Shown here piece after piece: positions 41,121-64,000 of a DNA stretch of 64,000 bases. Under the pieces are notes generated by a model that ran no database searches, was not told the origin of the DNA, and was given only the letters and a program-made list of their open reading frames with translations. The translations under genes and the position numbers were made by a program. Source of the stretch: Pseudomonas helleri (lineage in GTDB: Bacteria; Pseudomonadota; Gammaproteobacteria; Pseudomonadales; Pseudomonadaceae); assembly GCF_009600315.1 (NCBI RefSeq), contig NZ_WIWC01000008.1:89449-153448 (forward strand), written 5' to 3'. Positions within the stretch are counted from its first letter, which is position 1. Every line of letters starts with the position of its first letter.

Positions 41121-42473
41121 CTAGTCTGCTTCAAATAACGCCATCGCCTCGACATGCGCGGTTTGCGGGAACATATCGAGGATTGCGGCACGTTTTAACC
41201 GATAACCCTGTTTCATCAACTCAACGGTGTCGCGTGCCAGCGTGGCCGGATTACACGACACATACACCAATCGTTTGGCCCCCAGGCCGGACAGCTTGCG
41301 CACGACTTCATAGGCGCCATCGCGGGGTGGATCGAGCAATACGGCAGCAAAGCCGTCTTTGGCCCACTCTTCGTTTTCCAGCGGCTGCGACAAGTCAGCC
41401 TGATAAAACGCGACATTATGCAGGTTATTGCTCACTGCATTCTGCGCGGCGCGTTCGACCATCGTCGCAACACCTTCGACCGCGACGACTTCACGCGCCT
41501 GACGGGCCAACGGCAATGCGAAGTTACCCAGCCCACAAAACAGGTCAAGCACCCGCTCGTCGGCTTGCGGTGCCAGCCACTCCAGTGCCTGAGCCACCAT
41601 CGCTTCGTTAACCCCCGCATTGACCTGCACAAAGTCGCCAGGACGATACGCCAGTTCCAACCCCCACTGCTCTAAACGGTAGCCCAACCCCTGGTGTGCA
41701 TCGAGAGGCTGCGGCTGATCTTCGCCATGCAACCACAATTGGGCGTTGTGCATCTGACAAAAAGCCTGCAACACGCCCATATCTGCTTCGTTAAGCGGCG
41801 CCATATGGCGCAATAAAACAGCGATTGCAGAACCACTGAACAGTTCGACATGGCCCAGCGCCTTCGGATTGCTCAGTTGCCGCAACATCGCGGGCAACCC
41901 ACTCATGATAGGTTGCAAAGCCTGTACCAGCACTAAACAGTGATCAATTGCGACGATGTCCTGGCTGCCCGCAGCCCGGAAACCGACGTCCAGGCGCTTG
42001 GCCCGTTGATCCCAACGCACGGCAATGCGGGCGCGACGACGGTAGCCAAACTCAGGCCCGGTCAGCGCTGGCGCCCACTCTTGAGGTTCGACCCCGGCCA
42101 CGCGGGACAGTTGCTCGGCGAGCATGCGCTGTTTCAGTGCAAGCTGTTCGGAATGGGGCAGGTGTTGCACGCTGCAACCGCCGCACTTTCCAGCCAGCTC
42201 GCATGGCGCCACGCGACGCGTCTCGCTGGCCTTGAAAACACGTTCAGTACGGGCTTCAACCACTTTGCCGTGGGCACCCAGCACCCGAGCTTCGACCTCT
42301 TCACCGGCCAATGCGCCGGACACAAACCAGGTGCGACCTTCAACAAACGCAATACCGCGTCCATCGTTGGCCAGACGTTCGATGCTCAAACGTTGTTTCT
42401 TGCCCACGGGCACTTGTGGGGCCTTGGTGCCGCCAGCAGGCTGGAAGCGCAGACCCCTTTCTTGCTTAGCCAT
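41121..42473 (-). CDS. rlmD: 23S rRNA (uracil-1939-C5)-methyltransferase
   Basis: A 450-residue SAM-dependent methyltransferase (formerly rumA). An N-terminal TRAM domain (about 20-80) precedes the 4Fe-4S cluster Cys cluster in [17 protein letters not shown]. The SAM-binding motif is [14 protein letters not shown], and the catalytic Cys is in [13 protein letters not shown]. Its start codon shares a base with the cysM stop (TGATG at 42471-42475), so expression is coupled to cysM. It modifies U1939 of 23S rRNA. Confidence 0.95.
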
Positions 42474-45927: not shown

Positions 45928-48693
45928 GTGCTTAAGAACCTGGGTATCAAAGGCCGTGTGTTGCTGCTCACGCTAGTGCCCGTCTCCTTGATGGCAATGG
46001 TCCTCGGAGGTTACTTCACCTGGTTGCAGCAGTCGGAACTGGAATCCCAACTGCTGCAACGCGGTGAAATGATCGCCGAACAGCTTGCGCCTTTGGTAGC
46101 GCCCGCAATGGGCCGCAATGACACCGCACTGTTGAACCGAATTGCGACTGAAGCCCTGGAACAACCCGATGTTCGGGCGGTGGCGTTTCTGAGCGCCAAT
46201 CATCAACCCCTCGTCCATGCTGGCCCGAGCATGCTTAACCTGCCGCCCTTGGGCAACAGCACCCAGTTGCTGCAACGTTCGGATGTCGATGCCACTCGCT
46301 ATCTACTGCCCGTATTTGGCCGCCATCGCAACCTCGCAGGCGACATTATCCCCAACGAAGCTCATCGCTTGCTGGGATGGGTCGAGCTTGAACTCTCGCA
46401 CAACAATATGTTGCTGCGCGGGTATCGCAGCCTGTTTGCCAGTTTGTTGCTGATCGGCGCTGGGCTGGTGTTTACCACCTTGCTGGCGTTACGCATGAGC
46501 CGCACCATCAATGACCCGCTGGACCGAATCAAACAAGCCGTGGCGCAACTCAAGGATGGCCAGTTACACACCCGCTTGCCGCCGCTGGGCAGCCATGAGC
46601 TGGATGAGCTGGCATCGGGTATTAATCGCATGGCCGAAACCCTGCAAAATGCGCAGGAAGAACTGCAACACAGCGTCGATCAAGCCACTGAAGATGTACG
46701 TCAAAACCTTGAAACCATTGAAATCCAGAACCTCGAACTCGACCTCGCCCGCAAGGAAGCGCTGGAGGCCAGTCGCATCAAGTCTGAATTCCTGGCCAAT
46801 ATGAGCCATGAAATTCGCACCCCGCTCAATGGCATTCTGGGCTTTACCCATCTTCTGCAAAAAAGCGAGCTGACGCCCCGCCAATTCGACTATTTGGGCA
46901 CCATCGAAAAGTCGGCCGATAACCTGCTCGGCATCATCAACGAAATTCTCGATTTCTCGAAGATCGAGGCCGGCAAACTGGTGCTCGACACGATCCCGTT
47001 CAACCTGCGTGACTTGTTACAAGACACCCTGACCATTCTGGCCCCGGCGGCCCATGAAAAAAATCTGGAACTGGTCAGTCTGGTGTACCGCGATACGCCG
47101 TTGTCATTGATGGGTGATCCGTTGCGGCTCAAGCAGATCCTCACCAATCTGGTCAACAACGCGGTCAAGTTCACCCGCGAGGGCACCATTGCGGTACGGG
47201 CCATGCTCGAAGACGAAGATGACAACACACCCGAAGGCTTCGTCCAGTTGCGCATCAGTGTTCAGGACACCGGCATTGGTCTGACCAGCCAGGATGTGCG
47301 GGCTTTGTTCCAGGCCTTTAGCCAGGCCGATAACTCACTGTCTCGCCAACCCGGCGGCACCGGCCTGGGGTTGGTTATTTCCAAACGTCTGGTTGAGCAG
47401 ATGGGCGGCGAAATTGGCGTAGAGAGCACCCCCGGTGAGGGGTCGGTGTTCTGGATCAGCGTCAAACTGCCTAAAGCCCGCGACGATGCCGAAGACTTGC
47501 CCGGCGCGCCGCTGCTGGGCCGCCGTGTGGCGGTGCTGGAAAAACACGACCTGGCCCGTCAGGCCCTGCAGCATCAACTGGAAGATTGCGGGCTGGAAGT
47601 TACGCCCTTCACCAGCCTCGAAAACCTGACCAATTGTGTGACGAGTGCCCATCAGACCGCGCTCGCCATCCATTTGGTAGTGCTGGGTGTCACCGCCCAC
47701 GAAATGCCGCCCGAGCGTCTGAACCAGCACATATGGGATCTTGAGCACCTGGACTGCAAAGTCCTGGTGTTGTGCCCGACCACAGAGCAAGCCCTGTTCA
47801 ATGCATCGGTGCCTAACCCTCACAGCCAACTGCAGGCCAAACCCGCGTGCACCCGAAAATTGCGCCGGGCGCTGGCTGACTTGATCAACCCGCAGCACGT
47901 GCGCCACGAGCCAGGCGAGCCGACGGCCAGCCGCGCACCGCGGATTTTGTGCGTAGATGACAACCCGGCCAACCTGTTGCTGGTGCAGACCCTGCTGGAA
48001 GACATGGGCGCTCAAGTGATTGCGGTGGACAGCGGGTACGCCGCCGTTAAAACCGTCAAGTCCCACGATTTCGATTTGGTACTCATGGACGTACAAATGC
48101 CCGGCATGGACGGACGTGAAACCACCGAAGTCATACGTCAGTGGGAAAGTGAACAACATTTGACGCCGCTGCCGATTGTTGCGTTGACCGCTCACGCGAT
48201 GGCCAATGAAAAGCGCGCGTTGCTTCACAGCGGCATGGATGACTACCTGACCAAGCCCATCAGCGAGCGTCAATTGGCCCAAGTGGTGTTGAAGTGGACG
48301 GGGCTGGCCCTGCGCAACCAAGTGATCGACAACACCCATGAACCGATCCACCACGGCAACCAACTGGCCGTACTCGACCCTGATGAAGGGTTGCGCCTGG
48401 CGGCAGGCAAGCCCGACCTGGCCATCGACATGCTGGCTATGCTGCTGGCATCACTGGAAGCGGACCGTGAAGCGATCCAGCAATCGCGTCAGGCCAATGA
48501 CAACAATGCACTGATTGAGCGCGTTCACCGCTTGCACGGCGCGACGCGCTACTGCGGCGTTCCGCAATTGCGTGCCGCCTGTCAGCGTAGCGAAACCCTG
48601 CTCAAACAAGGCAGTGCACACGCCAGTACCGCTCTGGACGAACTGGATGAAGCCATGTCGCGCTTGGCTGAAGAGGCGCGAAGCACGCCGTAA
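45928..48693 (+). CDS. gacS: Hybrid sensor kinase GacS
   Basis: A 921-residue tripartite kinase (BarA ortholog). It has a transmembrane helix near residues 10-30, a periplasmic sensor to about 165, a second helix and HAMP. The HisKA domain holds H294 in [15 protein letters not shown], followed by an HATPase with [21 protein letters not shown] receiver carries D721 in [13 protein letters not shown]. The C-terminal HPt domain holds His867 in [12 protein letters not shown]. GacS phosphorylates GacA, driving RsmY/RsmZ RNAs that relieve RsmA and switch on secondary metabolism and biofilm. A GTG start at 45928 follows GGAG. It is followed by ldhA and is divergent from the two-component pair. Confidence 0.95.
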
Positions 48694-48754
48694 AACGCGT
48701 GCAAGTCACTACAATGAACCCGGCGGCCCCACTCGCTTATCTCAAGGATGACCC

Positions 48755-49744
48755 ATGCGCACGATACTTTTCAGTTGCCAGACTTACGACCGCGACAGTT
48801 TTAGCGCTGCTCAACAGCCGGACGGTATTGAGTTGCACTTTCAGCCGGCGCGGCTGAGTCTCGAAACAGCAGCCATTGCCCATGATTACGAAGTGGTCTG
48901 TGCGTTTATCAATGACGATTTAAGTGCCCCGGTGCTGGAGCAACTGGCCGCTGGCGGTACGCGTTTGATCGCCCTGCGCTCGGCCGGTTTCAATCACATC
49001 GACTTGCCCGCCGCCAAGCGCCTGGGCTTGAGCGTGGTACGCGTACCTGCTTACTCCCCGCATGCGGTGGCTGAACATGCCGTGGCCTTGATTCTGGCGC
49101 TCAACCGCCGCCTGCACCGCGCCTATAACCGCACCCGCGACGGCGATTTCACCCTGCACGGGCTGACCGGCTTTGATCTGGTGGGCAAAACCGTCGGCGT
49201 AGTCGGCACCGGCCAGATCGGCGCCACGTTTGCCAAAATCATGGTGGGTTTCGGCTGCAAATTACTGTGCTTTGACCCGTATTCAAACCCCGAGCTGCTG
49301 GCACTGGGGGCGCACTATGTGAGCTTGCCAGAGCTGCTGTCCGGTTCGCACATCATCAGCCTTCATTGCCCACTGACCGCCGACAACAAACATTTGATCA
49401 ACAGCCAGTCGCTCGCCACCCTCAAACGGGGCGCCATGCTGATCAACACCGGGCGCGGCGCGTTGGTCGAGACACCGGCGCTGATCGAAGCCCTGAAGAC
49501 TGGCCAGTTAGGCTATCTGGGGCTGGACGTCTATGAAGAAGAAGCCCAGATATTCTTTGAAGACCGCTCCGACCTGCCCTTGCAGGACGATGTGCTGGCA
49601 CGCTTGCTGACCTTCCCCAATGTGATCATTACCGCCCATCAGGCTTTTCTGACGCGCGAGGCACTGAGTGCGATTGCCAGCATCACGCTGGACAATATTG
49701 CGGCCTGGAAAAACGGCACGCCGCACAACCTGATCGAAGGTTGA
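48755..49744 (+). CDS. ldhA: Fermentative D-lactate dehydrogenase
   Basis: A 329-residue 2-hydroxyacid dehydrogenase that reduces pyruvate with NADH. The N-terminal MRTILFSCQTYDRDSF matches LdhA. The nucleotide-binding motif is VGVVGTGQIGATFAKIM. The catalytic Arg lies in INTGRGALVE, with Glu near LDVYEEE and His in ITAHQAFLTREAL. It is 61 nt after gacS and on the same strand; a GGAT-type ribosome site lies upstream. Confidence 0.94.
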   Translation: MRTILFSCQTYDRDSFSAAQQPDGIELHFQPARLSLETAAIAHDYEVVCAFINDDLSAPVLEQLAAGGTRLIALRSAGFNHIDLPAAKRLGLSVVRVPAYSPHAVAEHAVALILALNRRLHRAYNRTRDGDFTLHGLTGFDLVGKTVGVVGTGQIGATFAKIMVGFGCKLLCFDPYSNPELLALGAHYVSLPELLSGSHIISLHCPLTADNKHLINSQSLATLKRGAMLINTGRGALVETPALIEALKTGQLGYLGLDVYEEEAQIFFEDRSDLPLQDDVLARLLTFPNVIITAHQAFLTREALSAIASITLDNIAAWKNGTPHNLIEG

Positions 49745-49794
49745 AAGGCCAGAGCACAGGCGCGTGATAGCATAGCGGCCTATTTGGAGGACCC

Positions 49795-50232
49795 ATGGTC
49801 GAACACGATTTCCGCTTCAGCCTGCTGAACCCGCAGCACACCCTGATTGAATGCCGCGCATTGGCGCCGGGTCTGTATCAAGTCACCGGCAACGGGGGTT
49901 CGATTCAATCTGGCGACGTGCTGATTGTGACGCTTAAAGGCAGCAAGGATTTGTCCATGCGCCTGAGCGTCGACAAAGTACGCCACCTGATCAACCCGCG
50001 CGGTCAGTGGGTTGCCGTGACCAAGGGGCCAGCTTTCGGCGAGTTGGCCATTCATCAGTGGCAGGTCAACTGCGACGCCTGCGCCAAAGAACTGAAGTTT
50101 GAGTTTGCGGTAGACGCCAAGCTTGGCACCAAAGCGCAAAAGCCTGCGGCCAGTGCGCGAATCGCTGAGCTGGGCTGGAGCACTGAAGGCAGCAAGCACC
50201 TGTGCCCACAGTGCCAAAAGGCCGCGCAATGA
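49795..50232 (+). CDS. Conserved zinc-ribbon-like protein
   Basis: A 145-residue soluble protein. The first 85 residues form a beta-rich domain (IQSGDVLIVTLKGSKDLSMRL). The second half has four Cys in two pairs, CDAC (near residue 95) and CPQC near the C-terminus, as in a zinc ribbon. Function is unknown. A GGAGG site precedes the ATG at 49795. Its TGA overlaps the ATG of the following lipoprotein (ATGA), so the two are coupled. Confidence 0.82.
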   Translation: MVEHDFRFSLLNPQHTLIECRALAPGLYQVTGNGGSIQSGDVLIVTLKGSKDLSMRLSVDKVRHLINPRGQWVAVTKGPAFGELAIHQWQVNCDACAKELKFEFAVDAKLGTKAQKPAASARIAELGWSTEGSKHLCPQCQKAAQ

Positions 50233-50627
50233 AACGCCTGATCCTGATGGCCGTGCTGGGCGCAAGCCTGGTGGGGTGTGCAGGCGACCCAGTGCAGCTG
50301 CAGCACAACCACACCTACGTGGTGGAGTGGATTGGCGAGCGGCCATTGATTGATAGCAGCCACTTGACCGTGACCTTTGATGAAGGCGGCCGGGCCTATG
50401 GCAGCGGCGGTTGCAACCATTGGTTTGCGCCTTACACCCTGGACGGTGACACGCTTTCCTTTGGTGGTGTGGGCAGCACGCGCAAGGCTTGCGCACCTGC
50501 GCTGATGGAGCAGGAACATCGCTTTTTCGAAGCCCTGCAAACCGTACAGCGTTGGGATATTTCGCCCATCGAGCAGGTGCGCTTCTGGCCGGCTGAAGGC
50601 AAGCCGTTGCGGTTGTGGCCTGAGTAA
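50229..50627 (+). CDS. META/HslJ-domain lipoprotein
   Basis: A 132-residue lipoprotein. The signal MKRLILMAVLGASLVGCAG has a lipobox LVGC, with the lipid Cys at residue 17. The rest is an HslJ/META beta-domain, with YVVEWIGERPLIDSSHLTVTF and the family motif GGCNHWFAPYTLDGDTLSFGG. HslJ is linked to heat and novobiocin resistance in E. coli; the role here is unknown. I chose the ATG at 50229, not the longer frame, because the signal peptide begins there and it overlaps the previous stop. Confidence 0.88.
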   Translation: MKRLILMAVLGASLVGCAGDPVQLQHNHTYVVEWIGERPLIDSSHLTVTFDEGGRAYGSGGCNHWFAPYTLDGDTLSFGGVGSTRKACAPALMEQEHRFFEALQTVQRWDISPIEQVRFWPAEGKPLRLWPE

Positions 50628-50634
50628 AAGCGGC

Positions 50635-50737
50635 CCCTCACCCCAGCCCTCTCCCGGAGGGCTGGGGTGTAATGGTGCGCAGATCTGCTTTTGACTTTAG
50701 TCCCCTCTCCCTTCGGGAGAGGGTTAGGGTGAGGGGC
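50635..50737. repeat. CCCTCACCC-family palindromic repeat
   Basis: CCCTCACCCCAGCCCTCTCC with an inner CTCCCGGAGGGCTGG stem, then CTCTCCCTTCGGGAGAGGG and the closing GTTAGGGTGAGGGG. It lies between convergent genes and may end transcription from both. Confidence 0.85.
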
Positions 50738-50750
50738 TCTTGGCTGAGCT

Positions 50751-51215
50751 TTAATGCCCTCTAAGCTCTTTGATCTTGGCCAACACCCCGGCCGCCGTCT
50801 GCTCACCCAACATCTGTGCGCGAACCTTGCCCTTTTCATCAATGATGTATGTCACCGGTAACGCTTCACTGCGCGGCAAATCAAAGTGATCCGCCGGGTC
50901 CTGCGCCAGTACGGTAAAGGTGATGCCCATCGCGGCGCTGGCATCACTCAGCTCCTTGCCTTGCAAGCCGTCGAAGTTAACCCCGAATACACCCACCGAT
51001 TGCCCCTGCAACTGCTGCTCCAGCGAATTCAGTTCCGGGATTTCAATGCGGCAAGGCCCACACCACTCGGCCCAGTAGTTGATCACCTTCCACTGCTTGT
51101 CCAAACGTTCCGAGGGGATCTTCTGGCCATGCTGATCGACCCCGTAATCATTGCCACAACCGGCTAGCAGTAAAGTAGCAGCGACAGCAACTACCGCCAT
51201 GATTCGCTTAAACAT
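50751..51215 (-). CDS. TlpA-family thiol-disulfide lipoprotein
   Basis: A 154-residue thioredoxin-like lipoprotein. The signal MFKRIMAVVAVAATLLLAGC puts the lipid Cys at residue 20. The active site is W51-C-G-P-C55, and the cis-proline lies in ALPVTYIIDEKG. TlpA-like proteins reduce disulfides outside the cytoplasm, for example for copper or haem proteins. I chose the ATG at 51215, 21 codons inside the longest frame, because of the signal peptide and the AAGGATC ribosome site. Confidence 0.88.
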   Translation of the reverse strand: MFKRIMAVVAVAATLLLAGCGNDYGVDQHGQKIPSERLDKQWKVINYWAEWCGPCRIEIPELNSLEQQLQGQSVGVFGVNFDGLQGKELSDASAAMGITFTVLAQDPADHFDLPRSEALPVTYIIDEKGKVRAQMLGEQTAAGVLAKIKELRGH

Positions 51216-51341
51216 CTGTTGATCCTTCTCAGTAAATTCGCTCAAAAAGCCCAGTGACAGCGCTGAATAACCGCGCACGGTTCAGGCAGACTCGTCAGAC
51301 GGGTAGAATAGCCGCCACCTTACGCAAGAAGCGACCCGCAC

Positions 51342-52704
<1,363 letters not shown>

Positions 52705-52721
<17 letters not shown>

Positions 52722-53376
52722 AGGCCAGCATCTGTGACAACTGGCACATCGGCCGACCGCTTTCGGCGTGCCACTGATTGAAGGCATTCTGCACAATGGC
52801 CAAATCCCTCAAACTGGTCGGCGCCTTGTCGACCAGTTTCTGGGCATTGAGCGCCGCCACCACGTCGTAGCTCGGCACGAAGGTGTCTTTGCCCACCATG
52901 CGCAAGAAGCGCGGTGCCGACAGCCCACCCAACTGATGCCCGTGCTTGGCCAGGTACTTCCACAACCCCACAATGTCGGTCACCGGCCACTGCGCAATAA
53001 ATGCGCCGAAGCTGCCGTGCTCGTGGGCGATGTCCAACACCATTTGCGCATTGCGCGGCACGCTCTTGAGCTTGCCCAGATGACGGATAATCCGCGCATC
53101 CTGCATCAGACGCTCAAGGTGTTCCGCGCCCATCAACACGACTTTTTCGGGATCAAAACCAAAGAACACTTCTTCAAATACCGGCCATTTGGCGTCAACC
53201 ACACTGTGCTTGAGCCCGGCTCGAAAAACCCGCAAAGCCAGGGTCGACAAATATCGGTCGTCGGGAATGGCCCGTAATTGCGCCGGGGTTCGCGGTATGG
53301 GCAACTCGGCTTCCAGAGCGGCTACAGAACCAAAGCGGTTCAAACAGTATTCGTGCAGCCATGTGTAGTCGCGCAT
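52705..53376 (-). CDS. Tag-like DNA-3-methyladenine glycosylase I family protein
   Basis: A 223-residue protein related to DNA-3-methyladenine glycosylase I. The block LKHSVVDAKWPVFEEVFFGFDPEKVVLMG and MQDARIIRHLGKLKSV parallels E. coli Tag (GLSW...RENY...IIRHRGKI). The helix-hairpin-helix part near residues 150-170 (LSAPRFLRMVGKDTFVPS) is present. It lacks the Cys/His zinc cluster found at the Tag C-terminus, so it is a divergent branch. It excises alkylated bases. It is convergent with DUF2069 and overlaps it by 17 nt; a 16-nt gap separates its start from the ttcA remnant. Confidence 0.78.
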
Positions 53377-53392
53377 GCCCTCTCCTCTTGAA

Positions 53393-54097
53393 TTACGACA
53401 GGTTCAGCAGATTGACGAAACGCGGCGTCGCCGTTTCATCCATTTTCAGGCTGGCAAAATCAAACAGATTACGGTCCGCCAACTGGGACGGGTTAACGTT
53501 CTGCAAACTGCGGAAAATACTCTCGGTGCGTCCCGGCGTCTTGCGGTCCCACTCCTGAAGCATGTCTTTGACCACCTGGCGCTGCAGGTTCTCCTGGGAA
53601 CCGCACAGATTGCAGGGAATGATCGGGAACTGCTGCAAGTCCGAATACGCCTGAATGTCTTTCTCGTTGCAGTACGCCAGCGGCCGGATCACGACATTTC
53701 GACCATCATCGGACAGCAGTTTGGGCGGCATGGCCTTAAGGCTGCCATTGAAGAACATATTGAGGAAAAAGGTCTCAACGATGTCATCTCGATGATGCCC
53801 TAGTGCCATCTTGGTCGCACCAATCTCGTCGGCAAAGGTATACAAGGTGCCACGGCGCAGTCGTGAACACAGGGAACAGGTGGTCTTGCCTTCCGGGATC
53901 AATTCCTTGACCACCGAATAAGTGTCTTTTTCAACGATGTGATAGGCCACACCCAAGGCTTTCAGGTACGCGGGCAGTACGTCTTCTGGAAAACCCGGCT
54001 GTTTTTGGTCCATGTTCACGGCGACAATTTCGAACGAGATTGGCGCAACCTTTTGCAGGTGCAGCAACACGTCCAACAGCGTGTAACTGTCTTTGCC
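53393..54097 (-). pseudogene. ttcA: Resident ttcA, truncated at the PP-loop by island insertion
   Basis: The resident chromosomal ttcA, read on the minus strand. From G-K-D-S-Y-T-L-L to the C-terminus (about 234 residues) it is intact and matches Pseudomonas TtcA, including [12 protein letters not shown] and the second [13 protein letters not shown] cluster motif. At 54097/54098 the sequence leaves TtcA: the codon before GKDS should be GGC in SGG, but is followed by AT-rich DNA with a TAA. About 45 residues, including the start codon and the first part of the S-G-G-K-D-S ATP loop, are missing. A TTG just inside could in theory start a 227-residue product, but that product would lack the loop and be inactive. 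Confidence 0.88.
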
Positions 54098-54263
54098 TTA
54101 TAGCTCAAGGATATACTAGTAAACATTACACTCATGCTCGTAACTATATAATTTTACGACGTTTTACGAATAACATTCTTTACAAAAAAAGTCGACAATG
54201 TAAATTATCATGGTTTCCCGAACTCCATAGCCACCCTTACTTCACAAAAACGACGTTGAACCT
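54098..54263. other. AT-rich island boundary between the ttcA copies
   Basis: 166 nt of very AT-rich DNA (TATAGCTC, ATATACTAG, TATATAATTTTACG) directly after the break in ttcA. It has no gene. One end of the integrated element should lie at 54097/54098; the CTTTGCC/GGCAAAG at the break is part of the conserved PP-loop codons. Confidence 0.55.
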
Positions 54264-55157
54264 TTACAAAACCTGGACGACATCTATCCAATTTTCAACG
54301 CGGGAAGAAGAAACCGTTGCGCCTTCAAACTTGTAGGGCGGCCGGTCTTCCGATCTGTCAATAGACAGATTTACGAAGTCGAACAAACTGCGATCGGCTA
54401 TCTGGGAAGGGTTTACGCTTTGTAAGCTGTGAAAAATATTTTCCACGCATCCGGGATTTACCGAGTCCCACTCCGCAATCATCGATTTGATTTTTTTCCT
54501 TTGGAGATTCTCTTGTGAGCCGCAGAGATTACATGGAATGATCGGGTGCCCACTATCAGCAGCGACCTTCGCTACATCTTTTTCTCGGCAATAGGCGAGC
54601 GGCCGAATAACGATATTCCTCTTGTCGTCACTGAGCAGTTTAGGCGGCATCCCCTTCATCTTCGCTTGGAAAAACATGTTGAGAAACAAGGTCTCAACCA
54701 TATCATCCATATGATGTCCAAGCGCCAATTTAGTCGCCCCTATTTCCTCGGCAAAACTATATAGCGTCCCCCTTCTGAGTCTTGAGCAAAGAGAGCAGGT
54801 TGTTTTACCTTCAGGGATCTTTTGCTTGACGACTGAATAAGTATCTTTGTCAATTATATAATAATCAATCCCTTTACTCTCAAAAAACTCAGGCAAAATA
54901 TGCTCAGGAAACCCAGGTTGCTTCTGATCAAGATTCACGGCTACAACGCTAAACTTTATTTGCGCAACGCGCTGAAGATGTAGCAGCGCATCTAGCATTA
55001 CAAATGAATCTTTGCCGCCACTTACGCACGCCATAACTTTATCGCCGTCGTCAATCATTGCGTAATCTACAACAGCCTTTCCGACATTGCCGCGCAGCTT
55101 TTTACGACGAAGCTCTGCCGCCTTATTTAATTGAGCTGTACTTTCATCTATCATCAT
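54264..55157 (-). CDS. ttcA: Island-borne TtcA (tRNA 2-thiocytidine synthase), complete
   Basis: A complete 297-residue TtcA that would replace the broken resident gene. The PP-loop SGGKDS is at residues 46-51. The cluster Cys pair is in [12 protein letters not shown], and the second site is [14 protein letters not shown]. TtcA uses a 4Fe-4S cluster and ATP to thiolate C32 of some tRNAs. By eye it shares only about two thirds of residues with the resident fragment, so it came from elsewhere. The C-terminus has an unusual tail ([20 protein letters not shown]). It starts at the first of two adjacent ATGs with a GGAG site. It is more AT-rich than the resident copy. Confidence 0.92.
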
Positions 55158-55419
55158 GGCTTTAAGCTCCGACTAACAATTTAGAAAACTATAAATAATC
55201 CCAATGAATCAAAATAGCTAGTTAATGCAAAAACTAAAAACTGAAAACGCACGACAAATTATTTTCATTAGCCCAGACAACTAACATCTTATCTAAACGC
55301 TTAAAACTCGAAAAATAGATAAAGCTAACGATATCTGACTTGACTGCATCATAACAAGATTGCGTCTACGTTTTAAGTGCGTCCTGACCTGACTAGCATC
55401 TAGTTTCGTAGACAGGGAG
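55158..55419. other. AT-rich spacer upstream of the island ttcA
   Basis: 262 nt with no gene. It is AT-rich and probably holds the minus-strand promoter for the island ttcA. I see no clear attachment repeat or tRNA. Confidence 0.4.
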
Positions 55420-56316
55420 TGCGATTGAAGTACGCCTTATCAAGCTGCAGACTGCCGACTACTCCGTTCGAGGGCTTTTCCTGACGCTCAAAATCCACCC
55501 CAGTGCTACTACGCGAAGTTATCCGAACCGCAATCAGCGCGCGCCAAAGACGACCAGCGCCTGTTGGGGCGGATAAAACATTCATGGCTGGAGAGCGTCG
55601 CGTTTATGGCTATCGCAAAATCCATGATGACTTGCATGAAGTCGGCGAGGCTTGCGGTCGCCATCGGCTCGCCAGATTGATGAGTATTGAAGGTCTGCGT
55701 TCTCAGACAGGGTACCGCCGACGTCCAAGGAAGTACGGAGGTAAACCAACGGTAGCCTCACCCAACTTATTGAAACGCCAGTTTGATGTGGTGGAGCCCA
55801 ATAAGGTTTGGGTCACTGATATCACCTAGATCCGCACGAATGAAGGCTGGCTGTATTTGGCAGTGGTACTGGACTTTTTTGCTCGCCAAGTAGTTGGCTG
55901 GTCAATGAAACCGCAGATGACCAGCGATTTGGCCATTGATGCATTAGTGATGGCCGTTTGGAGGCGTAAACCGAAACAAAGGTGATAGTTCACAGCGACC
56001 AAGGCAGCCAGTACAGCAGCTCAGATTAGCGTAGTTTCTTGAAGGCGAACAATTTGGTTGCCAGCATGAGTCATCGAGGCAACTGCCCTGATAATGCTGT
56101 CGCAGAAAGCTTTTTCCAGCTTTTGAAGCGAGAACGGATCAGGCGAAAAACCCACATCACACGGGAAGATGCTCGTAGCGATGTGTTCGATTATATCGAG
56201 ATGTTCTACAACACAAAACGTCGTCATGGTTTCAACAATCAGCTGTCCCCGGTAGAGTTTGAAAAGCGTTACACCGCGAGCTTGGAAAGTGTCTAGAAAA
56301 CCCGGGGCTATTTAGT
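55420..56316 (+). mobile_element. Remnant of an IS3-family insertion sequence
   Basis: Only the second open frame (the DDE transposase half) and the right end remain. The right end, GTCTAGAAAACCCGGGGC, matches the IS3-family ends known from Pseudomonas (IS51/IS3 group). No upstream orfA or left end is seen within 55160-55420, so the element is 5'-truncated. It sits directly before the large STAND gene, about 25 nt from its start. Confidence 0.8.
55425..56296 (+). pseudogene. Frameshifted IS3-family transposase (orfB)
   Basis: The transposase reads in several frames. ADYSVRGLFLTLKIHPSA is followed by a frameshift to YYAKLSEPQSARAKDDQRLLG, another to RRVYGYRKIHDDLHE and VWVTDIT, then stop codons at 55829, and in-frame stops near 55985 and 56028. 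The last clean part is FFQLLKRERIRRKTHITRE and FDYIEMFYNTKRRHGFNNQLSP. The DDE catalytic Asp and Glu blocks (VTDIT, NAVAESFF) are recognisable but no longer in one frame. It is inactive. Confidence 0.88.
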
Positions 56317-56341: not shown

Positions 56342-59300
56342 ATGACGAAAATACGCGATAATTACGACAGTGTTCGAGCGTCAAGAGACGGTCATGAATT
56401 TCATGAGGCTTGGGTAGCACGAAAATGTTTGGGTTTACTGCTGCCGAAAGACGATTTCATTGGCTTGGCGATCGAGGGTTTTTCTCCAGCTGACCAAAAA
56501 ACCGCGGAAGACGCAGGAAACGAAATCGCAGACGCCGTTTTGTACTATGGGGATCGCTCCTCGTTTGAGCATGCGAGTCAGGTCGTGGTGGTTCAAGTCA
56601 AGTACTCGAAAGCTTCCGAGGACAAGCCATTTCGGGCGGCCGACGCAAAAAAAACGATTGAAAAATTTGCTAAGACATATCGGTCTCACAAGAGAAAGCA
56701 TGGCACCGAACAGGTACGGGCAAAACTCCGATTTGAATTGGTCACCAACCGTCCTATTTTGGCCGAACTGCACGACGCGATAGCAGGAATGATTGCGGGT
56801 GCTGCACTGCGTGGCACTGTGAAAGACCAGGCAGACCAAATCCAGGCGGCTTGCAACCTTCAAGGCCAGGATATGGCTGAGTTTATTTGCCGTCTTAATT
56901 TCACTGGTGTTAGGGGCGACTTGCGAGAAAGCAAGAATAGATTGGCGATAGCACTCGCGGACTGGTCTGCTGCCCGCGACCCTCTCGCGAGAGTTCGGCT
57001 CAATTCTATCCGAGAACTTGCGCGGGATAAGGCCAACCTGGCAAACCAGAATCGGAATGTCATATCGCGCGCTGACGTTCTTACCGCCCTTGAGCTGCAA
57101 GATGAAAACGATCTACTACCATGCCCAGCTAGCTTTCCAAACGTCGGGCCAGTCCTCGAACGAAGCCAACTGTCCGAGGTCGTAGCGAAAATTTCACTAC
57201 TCGATAGTCCACTGGTCATCTATGCGGACGGGGGAGTTGGCAAGACCGTCTTCATGAATTCGATCGCGAGTCGGCTTGCGAATGCGCATGAAATAGTACT
57301 CTTCGATTGTTTCGGCATGGGACAGTATCGTGCTCCCGGGGATGCAAGGCATCTGCCGAGAAAAGGCTTAGTCCATATCGTCAATGAACTCGCGTGTCGC
57401 GGCTTGTGTGATCCGCTTTTACCGGGTACGGACAATAGCGATGACCTGATCCGTGCCTTTCGGCTGAAAATAGGCCAAGCAGCAGAGACTGTCCGTCGAG
57501 TTACGACTGATCGACAACTGATCATATTGCTCGACGCGATCGATAACGCCGGCGAACAGGCAAAAGACCGAGGTGAACCATCTTTTCCAGAATTGCTGCT
57601 CGCAAGCATAAGTCACAGCGGACCGCTCACGGGAGTACAAGTGATTGTCAGTTCGCGCACTCATCGACGTCTGGCTGCGACCGGTGGAGCTGCATGTGAA
57701 GAGTTCGAGTTAAAGCCATTCACTATCCAAGAAACTGGCGAGTTTTTGCGCCACCGTCTCAATGGGCACACTGAAGCCAGGGTTCACGTTGCACAGTCCA
57801 GGTCGCGCGGTAACGCTCGAGTTCTCGAACACTTGGTGTCGGATGGCGCCACTCTTCTCGCCTCATCCGAAATTAATAAAGTCATTCAACTTGATGATTT
57901 ACTCCACAAGCGAATCAAAGACGCGCTAAAAGTGGCGCGAAAGCAGGGGTATCAAGACGCAGCCATCAACGCCTTCTTGGCCGGCTTGGCATCTTTACCG
58001 CCTCCAGTCCCCTTACGAGAATTTGCGGAAGCAAGCGGACTGGACGAAGGTGCGATCGCTAGTTTCGCCGCGGACTTGTCCCCGTTGCTTGAGCAGACGA
58101 AGCATGGACTTATGTTTCGCGATGAACCGACAGAGACCCTGATTCGAGAACAATACTGCGCTGACAAAGAGACGCTACGGGGGCTCGCTAGAAACCTTCT
58201 TGGCATGCAGGCAACGTCGATCTATGCAGCGATCACCTTACCTTATCTGCTACAGCAATTAGAGGATGGTGAGAAACTGTTCGAGCTTGCCTTCGACGAG
58301 AGGATCCCGGCAGCTATAAAGAGTGCCGTGAGTAGACAGTCCATCAGGCATGCGCGTTTGCGAGCTGCATCTGCATATGCAGCTGACAGGAATGAGGTAA
58401 ATCGACTTGTACCTCTTCTTGTTGAGCTTTCGACACTTGCAGCGATGGATCAGCGTGGTACCAGCTACATCCTCGACAATCCTGATCTTACAGTTCTTTC
58501 CAATGATGCCGACTCCATACGGCGTCTTTTTGAGTTACGCACAAACTGGCCTGGTACACGCCATTCGAGGTTGGCAATCGCCTACGGCCTTGATGGTGAT
58601 TTGGCAGATGCTTATCACCATTCTCAAAGGGTTCTCGAATGGAGAGCTCACTGGCTTGAGCATCAGCATCAGCATCAGCATCAAAGAGAAATGGCAGATC
58701 CGACTGCATTGGATATGGCAGCTATTCCTTTCTGCCATCTGGTCAAAGGGGAAAGTGAGGTCGCAGCACAGGATATGTCGCGATGGGTAGATTGGTTCGC
58801 ATTTGACGTTGCTGAGTTATTGCTTCCCCTCTTACGCCTTGGTGTTCATGTCGGGACTGTCCAACAGGACGTCATTCGCACTTTTCTGACGTCAACGTTG
58901 TTGGGGCCAGGAGTGCTTGCAGCCTCTATCCCCTTTGTTGAAGAGGAAAAATCCCTTCAGCAATTGCTAATTAGCAGACTCGCTCAAGCTTGTGGGAAGG
59001 TAGAGAAAGTCCGGCTAGGTGAGAAACAGTACGATTCAAAGAAGGGGCGGATAATCCGCGGGTTGTTGAGAAGCGCATCGATCGCCTTAGTGCGGGGCAT
59101 GAAAGCAGAGGCCCGCATCATCCTATACGCGTTGCAAATACCTGCACCTTCTTTGCACGTCTATATGAGCACCTACTGGTCCGAGGAGATTCATTCATTT
59201 CTGGCATTACAGGCGCTTCTCTGCGTGGCATCTGATGAAGATGTCATAGAGCGACACCTGCTACCTCAAGAACTAGCTGAGCTCGTCGTGAATCTGCCAG

Positions 59301-62300
59301 CCCAGCTTCAGGGGGTGGATTTCAAAAAAGCAATGAAGTTAGAGCTCGAAAAGCGATCTTTGGACGGGCACACCGAATGCAGTGGAAAGAAGCAAATTAC
59401 TGCGGACACAAAAAGCTCTGCCATGCGCTTCCTTTCAGACCAACTGGAGCACTGGTTACAAATTTCCATCGCATTTGCAGCGTGCTTCAATCAACGGAAG
59501 AAAACGGTAAGAAGATTGAGCCCGTTAATTGATCTTTGGCCCGATCTTCTCAATCGTAAAGACTACCGATCTGGTGGGGTCGATGCACAACGACAACGTT
59601 TTGAAGTATCGGAACGGCTTCTAACGTTAGCATTCGAAGCAGATCCGTCTCTAGATCAGGCAGAGGTCGTCAAATACCTAGAAGCAGTGGAGGCTCGTGG
59701 AATTACAAATGTCTCGCACGCCATCGACATTGTCAGCGTGCTAGCCGTCCGACCTGCGCTTCATATCTTGGCAGGCACAACTGCCATAAAAGTAAACATG
59801 GCAATTGAGAAAGCCGATGACGTCAGTCTACGAGCGTCATTTTTCGCAGACCTGGCTAGAGCGATATCACCAGCCAGCCGCCACGAGTCGACGGACTACT
59901 TCCACCGTGGGCTAGAGCAAATGGATGCCGTCGGTTCTGGTGATTATAAGTTTGTGAACGAATTGATGCAGTTTGCGAGTTCTCTGCAAGGAGAAGAGCT
60001 TTCCGACGAGGACAGTCATACGCTTTCCAATATCTGCGAACTGAATCTTGGCGAGGAAAACAAGTTCAATTGGGGAATGTATGGCATGGCGATGGCCAAA
60101 GTCTCAGGGCTCAAGGGGCTCGCCAAACTAGCGCGCTGGGAGGATCGCGGTAGGATCTCATTGGATTACACACTACTCCCCTATGTCAGAGCGTTGATCC
60201 ATTGCAGGAAAATAGATCCCGCGATTGCCACAGCAATTCTGCGCGTTTCCAGTCCAGTAGAACTATGGGTTTGTGGTACAGAGCAATTAGTGGAGTCGCT
60301 GGAAAGCCAGCAGGTAGATCATGTAGAAGACTTGACGGAGGAGCTGATCACTCAATACAAGCAAAACAATCCTAACGGATTTGGGGCAGCAGTACCGCGG
60401 GCATTGGCGCGTTTAGCAAAGTCTACCTTTGGCGATTCAAATAAGTATGGCTACCTGTCCGCCATGGCTGATCAAATTGAGGTGTCTACACGAGAATTCA
60501 ATGACCTGAATAATTGGCGAACTTCACAACCTGTTTCAGATATTCAGAGACGACAACAGGCTAAGGTCGCCGCCGAGTCGCTACTCACGTCACTTGTGAT
60601 CAAGACAGACCCCGTAGACGAGCTTTCCATCGCAAATGCAATGGAGGAACTAAAAAGTCTGAGTGGGTCGGGGTGGGGGGATCAGCGCGATTTTTTCGAG
60701 CAATTACAGGTAAAGGTTCCATATGGCGAGTGGCCTCAATATCTCACATTGATCGCTCGCCAAGGTCAATTGGTACTTCATGAAAAACTGCGCATACTTA
60801 GCGCGTGCAAGGAGGCTTGGTCTAAGGCGTCGAATACTGTTGTTATCACCCTAACCGGCTGCGCCGAGATCATCATTCGCCAGCACGTCTCGGAGTTCGT
60901 TTCATTTGATTATTTATCTACCTCAGATATCGCTGAACTCTCAAAGCTTTCAGAAGTCGATCGTCATTCCATTATATTGGCTTTGATAAGGGAATTCTGT
61001 CGTCCGGATGCTGAAGTATCAGCATCCGTTTGGTTGGCCCTTGCATCGGCTATAAATACTATGGCTGCGAGTGGTATTGGCCAGACTGCTTTGCAGAGGC
61101 TACTTAATACTGGAGCAGCCAAACTTGCGTCTTCTGTAGTGGATGGAGCGTGGCGATCTGCTCTTTACCCGCTAGACATTCAAACGGAAGTCGCAGCGGG
61201 GCTTATTTGGTTTGCACTGGGATCTGCTCAGGCTGAGAGGCGATGGATGGCGGCTCATAGCCTTAGAGTAGCCGTACGACTTGGCCGATCGGAAATTTTG
61301 GACAAGACGGTAATGAAATTTACTATGACCTGCGCAGATGCTTTTCAAGCACAGGAGTTACCTTTTTTTCATCTACACGCAAAGCTTTGGCTACTGATAG
61401 CATTGGCCAGAATTGCTCTCGATGAACCCAAAGCTGTCGCTAAACATCACGATTTTCTTGAGCGAATAGCTCTCAGCACCGTAGACCCTCACGTGCTTTT
61501 CAAACACTTCGCAGCGGAAGCCCTACTCATCTGTGTCCGCGGCGGACATCTAAATCTTAGTCAAACAACGTTAAACGGGCTTCAGCATGTCAACCATTCG
61601 CAATATTTACTACATGAGACAAAAAAGTATTTCGGTGGTTCTTTTTACAAATCCCGCCCAGAAGGCACGCTCAAGCCACTAAAGGAGCTACATCTTGAAT
61701 ACGACTTTGGTAAATCCGACGTCTCTAATTTAGGAGACGTATTCGGTAAAGAGTACTGGTTTACGGCAGATGCGATGAATGAATGGGTGAGAAAGCACGA
61801 TGCTGAAATCACACACATGTCGGATCAAGGTGGGCGATCTGTATATCGTCGTGGTGGACATATTAACTTCTCTGCTGATCAGCATACCTACGGAGGGCAG
61901 TTATGTTGGCATGCCCTACATGGGGTAGCCGGTGATTTTCTTGCCAAATATGCGGTATCTCGGCGGCCATATGATGAGGGTAACCCTTGGTATGAATGGC
62001 TGAATCGGCGAGTTTTGACTCGTAAAGATGGACTCTGGCTGGCGGATGGAACGGATTGGCAGCCTGCGGAAACACGAATTAATTTACGTGATGTAAGTGG
62101 AAACAGAGTGGGCATAACGGGAGAGCCTAGCAAGCTTCAATCCCTGCTGGGCATCGATATAGATGTGGGCGACTGGATGGTGGTTGATGGTGACTGGAAG
62201 TCAGTCGACGGAATTGACATTCACATCAACTCTGCATTGGTCTCTGCCGAGGAGAGCTCAACAGTATCATCCAATTTAGCTACCCTGGACCCTTTTCAAG

Positions 62301-62815
62301 CCTATATACCGCGTCTGGACGAATACGACGATACGAACCCTGCAACCGAGCTAGCGCACCCTCCATTTGTGCCTTGGGTCGTCAATACGAGCTCAGATGC
62401 TGGCATTGATGAGACCGATCCATTCGGAGTCGTCGACGCTGCTGAGCGTAGAAAGCTGTCCAGTGTCGTGAATGCATTTGCACGAATCACTCCCCAAGAC
62501 CCGTATGGGCGCAGTTGGGCCGACCCGTCTGGGTTTGTTCTTATGCGGTGCGAGGCTTGGTGCCAAGAGGCCCAACGCAATGAAGGAGATCACTCGAGCG
62601 GAACTCGCATGCTATGCCGGTCCGACCTAATTCGAAACTACCTTGCCGCGAATAACGCGCATCTTGTTCTCTTAGTAGTCCTGCGCCAGTATGAACCAGG
62701 ATTCGGCGATCGCTCTTCGCATTTCAAACACACAACGGCCGTTGTACGGGTAACAGAGTCCTTAAATTTTACATATTATCGCGGCCTAACGAATGAACTA
62801 CACGAGAATGATTAA
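56342..62815 (+). CDS. Giant Avs-like STAND NTPase with DUF4297/Cap4-like nuclease N-terminus
   Basis: A 2157-residue protein. Residues about 1-200 resemble the DUF4297/Cap4 dsDNA endonuclease: G17-H-E-F-H-E-A-W (the family's G-x-x-F/Y), Asp64 (IADAVLYY) and Q85-V-K87 in VVVVQVKYS form a PD-(D/E)XK-like set. A P-loop NTPase follows, with Walker A G297-G-V-G-K301-T and Walker B I394-I-L-L-D398-A-I-D401, as in STAND/NACHT proteins. Residues about 550-1800 are mostly alpha-helical and repeat-like, and 1800-2157 form a distinct aromatic-rich C-terminal region. This order is that of Avs proteins, which bind a conserved phage protein and then cut DNA. I cannot place it in a named Avs type. A GCATCA repeat encodes HQHQHQHQ at 774-781. 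Confidence 0.85.
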   Translation: MTKIRDNYDSVRASRDGHEFHEAWVARKCLGLLLPKDDFIGLAIEGFSPADQKTAEDAGNEIADAVLYYGDRSSFEHASQVVVVQVKYSKASEDKPFRAADAKKTIEKFAKTYRSHKRKHGTEQVRAKLRFELVTNRPILAELHDAIAGMIAGAALRGTVKDQADQIQAACNLQGQDMAEFICRLNFTGVRGDLRESKNRLAIALADWSAARDPLARVRLNSIRELARDKANLANQNRNVISRADVLTALELQDENDLLPCPASFPNVGPVLERSQLSEVVAKISLLDSPLVIYADGGVGKTVFMNSIASRLANAHEIVLFDCFGMGQYRAPGDARHLPRKGLVHIVNELACRGLCDPLLPGTDNSDDLIRAFRLKIGQAAETVRRVTTDRQLIILLDAIDNAGEQAKDRGEPSFPELLLASISHSGPLTGVQVIVSSRTHRRLAATGGAACEEFELKPFTIQETGEFLRHRLNGHTEARVHVAQSRSRGNARVLEHLVSDGATLLASSEINKVIQLDDLLHKRIKDALKVARKQGYQDAAINAFLAGLASLPPPVPLREFAEASGLDEGAIASFAADLSPLLEQTKHGLMFRDEPTETLIREQYCADKETLRGLARNLLGMQATSIYAAITLPYLLQQLEDGEKLFELAFDERIPAAIKSAVSRQSIRHARLRAASAYAADRNEVNRLVPLLVELSTLAAMDQRGTSYILDNPDLTVLSNDADSIRRLFELRTNWPGTRHSRLAIAYGLDGDLADAYHHSQRVLEWRAHWLEHQHQHQHQREMADPTALDMAAIPFCHLVKGESEVAAQDMSRWVDWFAFDVAELLLPLLRLGVHVGTVQQDVIRTFLTSTLLGPGVLAASIPFVEEEKSLQQLLISRLAQACGKVEKVRLGEKQYDSKKGRIIRGLLRSASIALVRGMKAEARIILYALQIPAPSLHVYMSTYWSEEIHSFLALQALLCVASDEDVIERHLLPQELAELVVNLPAQLQGVDFKKAMKLELEKRSLDGHTECSGKKQITADTKSSAMRFLSDQLEHWLQISIAFAACFNQRKKTVRRLSPLIDLWPDLLNRKDYRSGGVDAQRQRFEVSERLLTLAFEADPSLDQAEVVKYLEAVEARGITNVSHAIDIVSVLAVRPALHILAGTTAIKVNMAIEKADDVSLRASFFADLARAISPASRHESTDYFHRGLEQMDAVGSGDYKFVNELMQFASSLQGEELSDEDSHTLSNICELNLGEENKFNWGMYGMAMAKVSGLKGLAKLARWEDRGRISLDYTLLPYVRALIHCRKIDPAIATAILRVSSPVELWVCGTEQLVESLESQQVDHVEDLTEELITQYKQNNPNGFGAAVPRALARLAKSTFGDSNKYGYLSAMADQIEVSTREFNDLNNWRTSQPVSDIQRRQQAKVAAESLLTSLVIKTDPVDELSIANAMEELKSLSGSGWGDQRDFFEQLQVKVPYGEWPQYLTLIARQGQLVLHEKLRILSACKEAWSKASNTVVITLTGCAEIIIRQHVSEFVSFDYLSTSDIAELSKLSEVDRHSIILALIREFCRPDAEVSASVWLALASAINTMAASGIGQTALQRLLNTGAAKLASSVVDGAWRSALYPLDIQTEVAAGLIWFALGSAQAERRWMAAHSLRVAVRLGRSEILDKTVMKFTMTCADAFQAQELPFFHLHAKLWLLIALARIALDEPKAVAKHHDFLERIALSTVDPHVLFKHFAAEALLICVRGGHLNLSQTTLNGLQHVNHSQYLLHETKKYFGGSFYKSRPEGTLKPLKELHLEYDFGKSDVSNLGDVFGKEYWFTADAMNEWVRKHDAEITHMSDQGGRSVYRRGGHINFSADQHTYGGQLCWHALHGVAGDFLAKYAVSRRPYDEGNPWYEWLNRRVLTRKDGLWLADGTDWQPAETRINLRDVSGNRVGITGEPSKLQSLLGIDIDVGDWMVVDGDWKSVDGIDIHINSALVSAEESSTVSSNLATLDPFQAYIPRLDEYDDTNPATELAHPPFVPWVVNTSSDAGIDETDPFGVVDAAERRKLSSVVNAFARITPQDPYGRSWADPSGFVLMRCEAWCQEAQRNEGDHSSGTRMLCRSDLIRNYLAANNAHLVLLVVLRQYEPGFGDRSSHFKHTTAVVRVTESLNFTYYRGLTNELHEND
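58660..58683 (+). repeat. Four tandem GCATCA hexamers inside the STAND gene
   Basis: Exactly four copies of GCATCA, encoding alternating His-Gln (residues 774-781) in the helical region of the large protein. Because the unit is 6 nt, slippage changes length by two residues and does not shift the frame. It may be a flexible linker. Confidence 0.8.
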
Positions 62816-62872
62816 TATGAAATCAAAATATAGACTTTGCGCACGCGCGCTTAATAAGCAAAAGCCATCAAC

Positions 62873-63709
62873 ATGAACCTATCAATACCCTTTAATGTCA
62901 ATACTGTATATTTAATAACGAGCGCTAGGAAGGGAGAAGAAGGAACAACTCGTCGTTTAAAAGAGGCCATATACGACGTCTCCAACAACGGAGGCAATTT
63001 TAATTCTACGCACGGGTCAATAACGGGTGGCGATGGTTACTTTCAATTGCTAAAAAATATCAATCACGAAATTGATGAAGGACTCAGACCAATTATCCAT
63101 TTTGACATGCACGGTTCCCAAGAGCACGGCTTGGAGATTGGTCACACGGGTGAATTTATTGACTGGGTGTCAGTTATCGACAGCCTAAGAATTCTGAACA
63201 CAAAACTTCAGAATGAACTGGTTGTTGTAATTACCGCATGCCATGGATTACGAGCAATCCTGCCAATTAGCCTCCAAAAAACCGCCCCTTTTTTGTGCCT
63301 AATTGCACCAGAAGAGGAAGTAACAGTTGGACACATTGAGGACAGAATACCAGAATTTTATCGAGAGCTATTTTCGTCAGGTTCATTAGCTCACGCATGT
63401 CAGAGGCTCGGGAAAGAATTCAAGTATTTCCATAGTGTAGAGTTTTTATTAATAACACTATGCAGATATATTAAGGAGCAATGCAAAGGGGCTGGAGGTC
63501 AACAAAGAAGAGAGGATCTACTTACCCAGGTAATGGAGACTGCGTTAGAAGAGGATCAGGGAAAAATCCAAGAATACAGGGCCAAAGTGAAGCAGTACAT
63601 AGCGCCGAGCCAAGATTTGCTTGATCGTTATACAACGCGCTTCCTAATGGGCAAAGCCTCTGATATCAGAATCACTGACCTTCTCGAAGAGATCAAGACG
63701 TCATATTAA
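62873..63709 (+). CDS. Caspase/CHAT-like cysteine protease next to the STAND gene
   Basis: A 278-residue protein with a caspase-hemoglobinase-like pattern. PIIHFDMHG puts the candidate catalytic His at residue 80, and VVVITACHG puts the catalytic Cys at residue 123, each after a hydrophobic strand, as in caspase and CHAT peptidases. The start reads TVYLITSARKGEEGT; the C-terminal half is helical. It begins 57 nt after the STAND gene stop on the same strand, so they are probably one transcript. No signal peptide. Proteases of this class are effectors or processing enzymes in several bacterial defence systems. The ribosome site is weak; the AT content is higher than in the STAND gene. Confidence 0.72.
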   Translation: MNLSIPFNVNTVYLITSARKGEEGTTRRLKEAIYDVSNNGGNFNSTHGSITGGDGYFQLLKNINHEIDEGLRPIIHFDMHGSQEHGLEIGHTGEFIDWVSVIDSLRILNTKLQNELVVVITACHGLRAILPISLQKTAPFLCLIAPEEEVTVGHIEDRIPEFYRELFSSGSLAHACQRLGKEFKYFHSVEFLLITLCRYIKEQCKGAGGQQRREDLLTQVMETALEEDQGKIQEYRAKVKQYIAPSQDLLDRYTTRFLMGKASDIRITDLLEEIKTSY

Positions 63710-64000
63710 ATAACATGTAGTTGAGGTCGCTCGCCTCGCTCACCTCTTGCAATCCAGGTTGGGGGGGGCTGGCACTCGCATGCTCGCACCAGTATACGTT
63801 CCATTGCTCACGAACTGGAGTACGAACATGGCCCAACTCATCAACGGCAAAGACCACCTGAGCTCTTCCCAGATCAAATCCTAAACCCCGGGCTTCGAAG
63901 CTCTCACCCAAGGGGCGACCATCGTAAGCGCTCCATGAACCCCATATTCAAAGCGCTTAGCTGACCCCCGATGCTGTGCTCCCGATTTTCTTTCTGGAGC
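63710..64000. other. Right edge: no complete gene, possible small minus-strand ORF
   Basis: 291 nt to the window end. A minus-strand open stretch reads back from about 63945 to 63693 (GSWSAYDGRPLGESFEARG, then FDLGRAQVVFAVDELGHVR and TPVREQWNVYW). Before it, at the edge, another frame ends in SRKKIGSTASGVS then a stop. Both could be real genes of the island's mobility or cargo region, but I recognise neither family, and a TTG start would be needed. Confidence 0.35.

Follow-up and report, generated by a model that had tools for sequence, protein, structure and literature searches.

The candidate antiviral defence locus at one end of a Pseudomonas helleri contig was analysed. The window, that is the whole stretch of 64,000 nucleotides studied, covers positions 89,449-153,448 of contig NZ_WIWC01000008.1, which is 153,448 bases long and ends at window position 64000. 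Two neighbouring genes on the + strand are the subject of the analysis. Open reading frame 1 (ORF1; 56342-62815, ATG start, 2157 aa) is a divergent Avs3-related gene for a nuclease-STAND (signal transduction ATPase with numerous domains) protein, and ORF2 (62873-63709, ATG start, 278 aa) encodes a predicted caspase-fold protein with a His80/Cys123 dyad and a helical C-terminal part (residues 188-278). The genes are separated by a spacer of 57 nt (62816-62872, +), and the contig ends 291 nt past the ORF2 stop codon. This layout agrees with a preliminary description made from the DNA letters, which had also placed both genes on an island; the G+C content is indeed lower inside it (0.43-0.53, against about 0.57-0.61 outside), the drop lying at the island edge near 53500, and it is 0.503 for ORF1 and 0.421 for ORF2.

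The relationship of ORF1 to known antiviral proteins was analysed. The preliminary description could match the arrangement to no named Avs type; the present comparison corrects this, as ORF1 is related to Avs3. The protein comprises an N-terminal QxK nuclease (about residues 1-230), a STAND ATPase for which the Pfam scan gave a NACHT domain at 292-473, and a C-terminal region (1450-2118) homologous to SeAvs3. The top PADLOC match was Avs3a (E-value 1.4e-204, best stretch 10-816). Among solved structures the sole match below 0.001 was SeAvs3 (PDB 8dgc, E-value 4.9e-126), which covered residues 11-836, 1154-1291 (weak alone, i-Evalue 0.044) and 1450-2118 (i-Evalue 1.2e-38). The QVK (K87), GGVGKT (K301) and LLDAID motifs, pointed out earlier, are present and match in position the nuclease motif, the Walker A motif and the Walker B motif of 35 other alignment rows and of SeAvs3. 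The domain scan gave no metallo-beta-lactamase (MBL) match in ORF1. The NCBIfam Avs3a model (NF041816) scored 784.9 bits against a curated equivalog cut-off of 2800, so ORF1 is classed as Avs3-related and not as Avs3a. Out of 7992 candidates scored in the protein search, 1106 were relatives at an E-value up to 1e-10; the nearest among the 120 of these that were listed, P0039 and P0040, share 92% identity. As judged from sequence comparison, ORF1 is an Avs3 homologue over most of its length and belongs to a divergent clade.

The search of 398 genomes of the same genus with the Avs3a family gave matches in 21, above the cut-off in 4. The Avs3-type loci compared were 21 in number, 16 from these genomes and 5 out of 19 plasmid records bearing an ORF1 relative. 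Five matched genomes were omitted: that of the window; G645 and G461, whose matches are short and contain stops; G450, which has a fragment examined separately as locus L128; and G636, whose match is split into two pieces some 2.6 kb from each other. An Avs3b relative lies directly behind the Avs3-type gene in 11 of the 21 loci, and in the other 10 (L068-L073, L083-L086) there is none. The Avs3b naming rests on NCBIfam for three downstream genes (two of the three below the 200-bit cut-off) with PADLOC, and on annotation for one plasmid. In a quick tree 10 Avs3b-bearing loci formed one group, starred there, and 9 loci without Avs3b grouped with ORF1; Avs3b was hence present in 10/10 canonical-clade loci and in 0/9 of the clade of ORF1. 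L067 (Avs3b present) and L073 (absent) joined on long branches and their placement is unsure. ORF1 is 30-32% identical to two canonical members (L074, L087) in the nuclease and NACHT parts and 19-24% in the remainder. It thus resembles the AVAST (antiviral ATPase/NTPase of the STAND superfamily) type 3 protein (Avs3a, SeAvs3; NF041816, PDLC02167) in its QxK nuclease, STAND/NACHT ATPase, C-terminal region and three homologous stretches, and is unlike it in these low identities, in the score below the Avs3a cut-off and in lacking an Avs3b partner. The clade of ORF1 appears from these sequences to be a large divergent Avs3 clade separate from canonical type 3 and devoid of Avs3b in the loci compared. 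If this reading is right, the role of Avs3b becomes testable by comparison. A separate gene in the position behind Avs3 is nothing new as such: Avs3b occupies it in the canonical clade. The PADLOC and NCBIfam scans gave no Avs3b match for ORF2. ORF2 as a diverged Avs3b was also considered and was rejected (hhalign probability 0.2%, E-value 0.29).

The fold of ORF2 was predicted. The structure model (mean predicted local distance difference test score, pLDDT, 88.6) showed a caspase-type fold with Foldseek and VIA matches, which bears out the earlier expectation for this protein. The His80/Cys123 signature claimed before is present and is strongly kept in 60 aligned sequences, that of the window included: His80 and the adjoining Gly in 60/60 and Cys123 in 59/60. 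The exception carries Phe at the catalytic Cys and is a cassette-borne close relative in locus L090 (10006-10845, G821). The best structural match was SAVED-CHAT (PDB 8tl0); unlike that protein, ORF2 with its 278 aa is too short for a SAVED domain and has a segment of helices and loops without strands (188-278) after the caspase part. This segment folded alone reached a pLDDT of 48.7 and that model was not used. The protein search gave 36 caspase relatives, the nearest (P0003-P0015) being 74-79% identical. Peptidase_C14 (PF00656) matched neither ORF2 nor 20 family members and had 0 matches genome-wide, a PDB sequence search with ORF2 alone gave no match at an E-value up to 1, and the family profile found no CHAT protein at an E-value up to 10. 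ORF2 is a predicted member of the caspase-fold (clan CD peptidase) family on the basis of its model, and its family escapes recognition by Pfam, NCBIfam and PADLOC in the scans made.

The distribution of the ORF2 family was analysed with a caspase profile. Matches were found in 4/390 genomes of the order, 10/398 of the genus, 7/343 relatives, 0/20 of the family draw and 2/56 of genus g2; the sample of 343 relatives overlaps the other draws, and the genome of the window is counted in the order, genus and relatives figures. Further matches came from 5 loci in GTDB contigs and from 20 plasmid records, 16 of them from Klebsiella; 6 of the 20 were compared, the other 14 being all Klebsiella. Homologs of the ORF2 family were absent from the viral contigs and phage records searched. 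Among the neighbours of the caspase relatives are a Shedu-type gene (L024), a pair annotated as belonging to the cyclic oligonucleotide-based antiphage signalling system (CBASS; L033) and an ATPase with AriAB as best PADLOC match (L004). PADLOC matched 3 of 8 neighbour proteins at an E-value up to 0.001 and left 5 without a match. These neighbours suit a defence role for ORF2 without proving it. When 188 proteins encoded around the caspase genes of 23 loci were compared all against all, no third partner recurred, the similarities being confined to near-identical plasmid pairs and a scatter of other pairs. Two distant caspase relatives (L036, 7890-8843; L037, 8031-8849) lie on IncFIB plasmids from Klebsiella (138 and 110 kb) that carry nrdAB.

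The conservation of the ORF1-ORF2 pair was analysed. No ORF1-like gene was found near an ORF2-family gene in 25 other loci, within about 7.5 kb (less at contig ends), and no caspase relative near an Avs3-type gene in the 21 loci, the flanks compared reaching about 4.6-6 kb to either side (shorter in L087, a plasmid of 10.4 kb). In the 398 genomes of the genus the caspase list (10) and the Avs3a list (21) overlap only in the genome of the window. G821, with a close caspase relative (E-value 1.6e-141), gave no match when its whole genome was searched with the Avs3a family, a search in which the controls were silent as well. In length, the longest contigs of the 36 caspase relatives agreed with those of none of the 120 listed Avs relatives, a weak comparison made by eye, as the list covers 120 of 1106 relatives and lengths are given per cluster. 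The homologs are thus almost never adjacent in the loci compared, the outcome that the preliminary description had named as refuting the pair. Both identities given in the preliminary description, a nuclease-STAND giant and a caspase-type partner, stand, the caspase fold as a prediction; the single joint system proposed for them is not supported. A conserved two-gene module was accordingly rejected, the pair being absent from both sets of loci and the match lists sharing one genome.

The surroundings of the caspase genes were examined for signs of integron cassettes. In L090 a 72-nt element is present in three copies (at 9228, 9931 and 10843); copies one and two enclose an ORF, copies two and three the caspase gene. 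In an integron the 7-mers that bound a cassette are expected to pair with each other, as they do in L090, where they are GTTAGGC/GCCTAAC for the first cassette and GTTATAA/TTATAAC for the caspase cassette. The same element was found in 50/56 genomes of the genus of G821, several of them with at least 16 matches, and many of its copies follow each other at distances between a few hundred and roughly two thousand bases. On contig C6 of G833 an integron integrase (502 bits, 41376-42320) has one copy (43052) some 730 nt away. Cassette carriage of the caspase gene is thereby shown for L090. Perfect 7-mer pairs at the caspase gene were seen in 2 of 24 loci, L002 (a metagenome-assembled genome of an uncultured Alcanivorax) and L028 (G097), both of which hold distant relatives of ORF2, the background being 12 of 4000 control positions; the test is strict and misses L090 itself because of its 5' 7-mer GTTATAA. 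Folding of the 3' flanks of both loci gives stems that leave extra bases unpaired. The z-scores of single-strand folding were -0.55 to -1.89 for the L090 attC copies, which is modest, -1.07 and -1.53 for L002, and -2.78 and -1.56 for L028. Sequence features of this kind indicate cassette carriage in L002 and L028. An earlier attC scanner had overlooked the three L090 copies and its negatives were discarded. Several direct repeats of 40-160 nt, spaced by about 400-450 nt, also flank the caspase gene of L028 (8086-8755, 12032-12900), possibly representing further cassette-type arrays. Before the first attC of L090 there is an ORF of 161 aa (8745-9230) with a sub-threshold match to SieB (super-infection exclusion; 19.9 bits, cut-off 26).

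The window and L090 are similar only across 62855-63743 (75% identity), a span that takes in the caspase gene plus the initial portion of the attC. Directly past the ORF2 stop codon, the half-attC-like stretch 63711-63744 (+) agrees with the attC behind the L090 relative in 25/34 positions; it is the best of the 34-mers of the window on both strands, with a runner-up of 21/34. A cassette origin of the ORF2 copy in the window is likely on these alignments.

Taken as a whole, the data are best explained by capture of an integron cassette that brought ORF1 and ORF2 together as independent defence genes, rather than by a conserved two-gene system; we consider this explanation probable. Homology suggests for ORF1 the mode of action of Avs3, in which the sensor at the C-terminus would recognise a phage protein, with the large terminase as the likeliest candidate, assembly would be powered by the STAND ATPase, and the nuclease at the N-terminus would cleave DNA. 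The triggers given for Avs1-4 in the accessible part of PMC12931631 are terminase, portal or Ksap1, with killing by nuclease activity. ORF2 would act by itself as a cysteine protease and may be expressed from the transcript of the Avs3-related gene; genes in cassettes usually lack promoters, according to the available text of PMC11014356. We infer that ORF2 may protect against phages and that ORF1 may sense terminase. A defence role of ORF2 is plausible because integrons are reported to store anti-phage cassettes (Darracq 2025, Getz 2025 and Kieffer 2025, as cited in the part of PMC12444791 at hand), and a single-gene cassette with a possible defence gene, as in the caspase relatives, resembles these. 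If true, the caspase-fold family joins the integron-borne genes that may be anti-phage, and the locus is a concrete case of cassette capture placing a caspase beside a sensor similar to nucleotide-binding leucine-rich repeat (NLR) proteins, which would be a possible assembly route for a bacterial NLR-caspase pathway. The wider proposal, that a small caspase-fold protease family forms stand-alone one-gene anti-phage integron cassettes, one of which was captured behind a terminase-sensing NLR-like nuclease, is offered tentatively and at modest odds, because one locus (L090) is fully read as a cassette and two others show signs only. No caspase-fold cassette family was found described in the literature at the level of titles and abstract openings, which were partly off-topic, and the word caspase has 0 occurrences in the available portion of PMC12444791.

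Several observations weigh against independent genes joined by cassette capture. Of an attC, the window shows the 5' half alone, which is followed by IS66-type sequence and the contig end, and the fold z-scores of this 3' flank (0.37, 0.57) give no signal. In 308 genomes of the same genus the flank matched, beyond itself, only stretches of 17-37 nt at E-values of at least 0.0037 (45 genomes); lacking a convincing second copy there, recurrence of this attC type is not supported. On the 5' side of ORF2 an attC boundary is not above background (17/30, window-wide maximum 18) and the expected cassette-start 7-mer GTTATTT is absent from the flank. As many as 21 of the 24 caspase loci, the window included, have neither a shown 7-mer pair nor flanking repeats. 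The genome of the window has no integron integrase above the TIGR02249 cut-off, which is not excluding since G821, with a clear cassette, also lacks such a match. As regards the pairing, one shared genome of 398 is close to chance (10 x 21 / 398 = 0.5) and indicates neither association nor avoidance, and the counts exclude the neighbourhoods of the closest relatives (P0039 and P0040 for ORF1, P0003-P0015 for ORF2). Finally, the genes lie on the same strand 57 nt apart, and in the spacer 62816-62872 no attC 3' half was recognisable, no terminator-like site was found and no promoter signal rose above background, so co-expression is likely.

This last arrangement would also suit a single two-gene system in which the activated Avs3-related complex turns on the caspase-like protease as a second effector or as a trimmer of ORF1. 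The slot behind Avs3 holds the partner Avs3b in all ten canonical-clade loci and in the outlier L067, and the idea is biologically sensible because proteases coupled to nucleases have been reported for Hachiman, AVAST and Canu in the accessible part of PMC12799240; the genomes compared give it no support, and the original claim of a functional pair is weakened. The pair is absent from the 25 ORF2-family and the 21 Avs3-type loci, ORF2 is unrelated to Avs3b, and it has a lower G+C content than ORF1 (0.42 vs 0.50) together with signs of cassette ancestry. ORF1 carries one extra residue compared with its two nearest compared relatives, both without a caspase, and with one inserted residue only it has no added protease-specific cleavage loop. 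Such a joint system is therefore judged decidedly unlikely. Canu, as far as the available part of PMC12799240 describes it, also has a caspase-type protease gene beside a nuclease gene in a defence setting, but there the partner is a gated MBL-fold nuclease and CanA has an Ig-like (immunoglobulin-like) fold, whereas ORF2 neighbours an Avs3-related STAND nuclease, has a C-terminal part that is helical in the model, and is not conserved in its pairing with ORF1. It is also rather improbable, though a shade less so, that ORF2 is a mere passenger, either a cassette without a defence role or an inert remnant. Genes of unknown function are frequent in cassettes (according to the part of PMC12444791 at hand), Phe replaces the catalytic Cys in the close relative of L090, and a constant partner was not found; the dyad is nevertheless kept across distant relatives, and Shedu-type, CBASS and AriAB-like genes occur nearby, yet with the few PADLOC matches given above.

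The insertion site was compared with related loci. Window positions 46963-55389 and L128 (G450) are collinear. At the corresponding position in L128, behind a ttcA-like gene, there is a fragment (464-465 bp, 91% identity) of an ORF1-like gene, accompanied by no caspase relative; this piece is uninformative on a former caspase gene because its 3' end is lost. Some 3.2 kb separate the same ttcA-like genes from a distant caspase relative in G833. The two PP-loop (TtcA-like) genes of the window (53393-54076 and 54264-55157, - strand; 227 and 297 aa) are 68% alike over 222 residues, and the gene pair recurs in L128 (7289-9318) and L091 (8517-10278). The end of this pair looks like a shared insertion site, with the Avs3-related gene in the window, the Avs3 fragment in G450 and a caspase gene nearby in G833. 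Just upstream of ORF1 there is a degraded transposase remnant (55400-56300, +) with ORFs of only 108 and 85 aa on that strand and no tool match, which we take to be IS3 (insertion sequence) OrfB-like. The contig end (63924-64000, +) carries IS66-type tnpB sequence, 94.8% identical over 77 nt to an annotated IS66 TnpB. At the other end of the window, a tRNA-Asp/tRNA-Val pair is duplicated in tandem (277-838).
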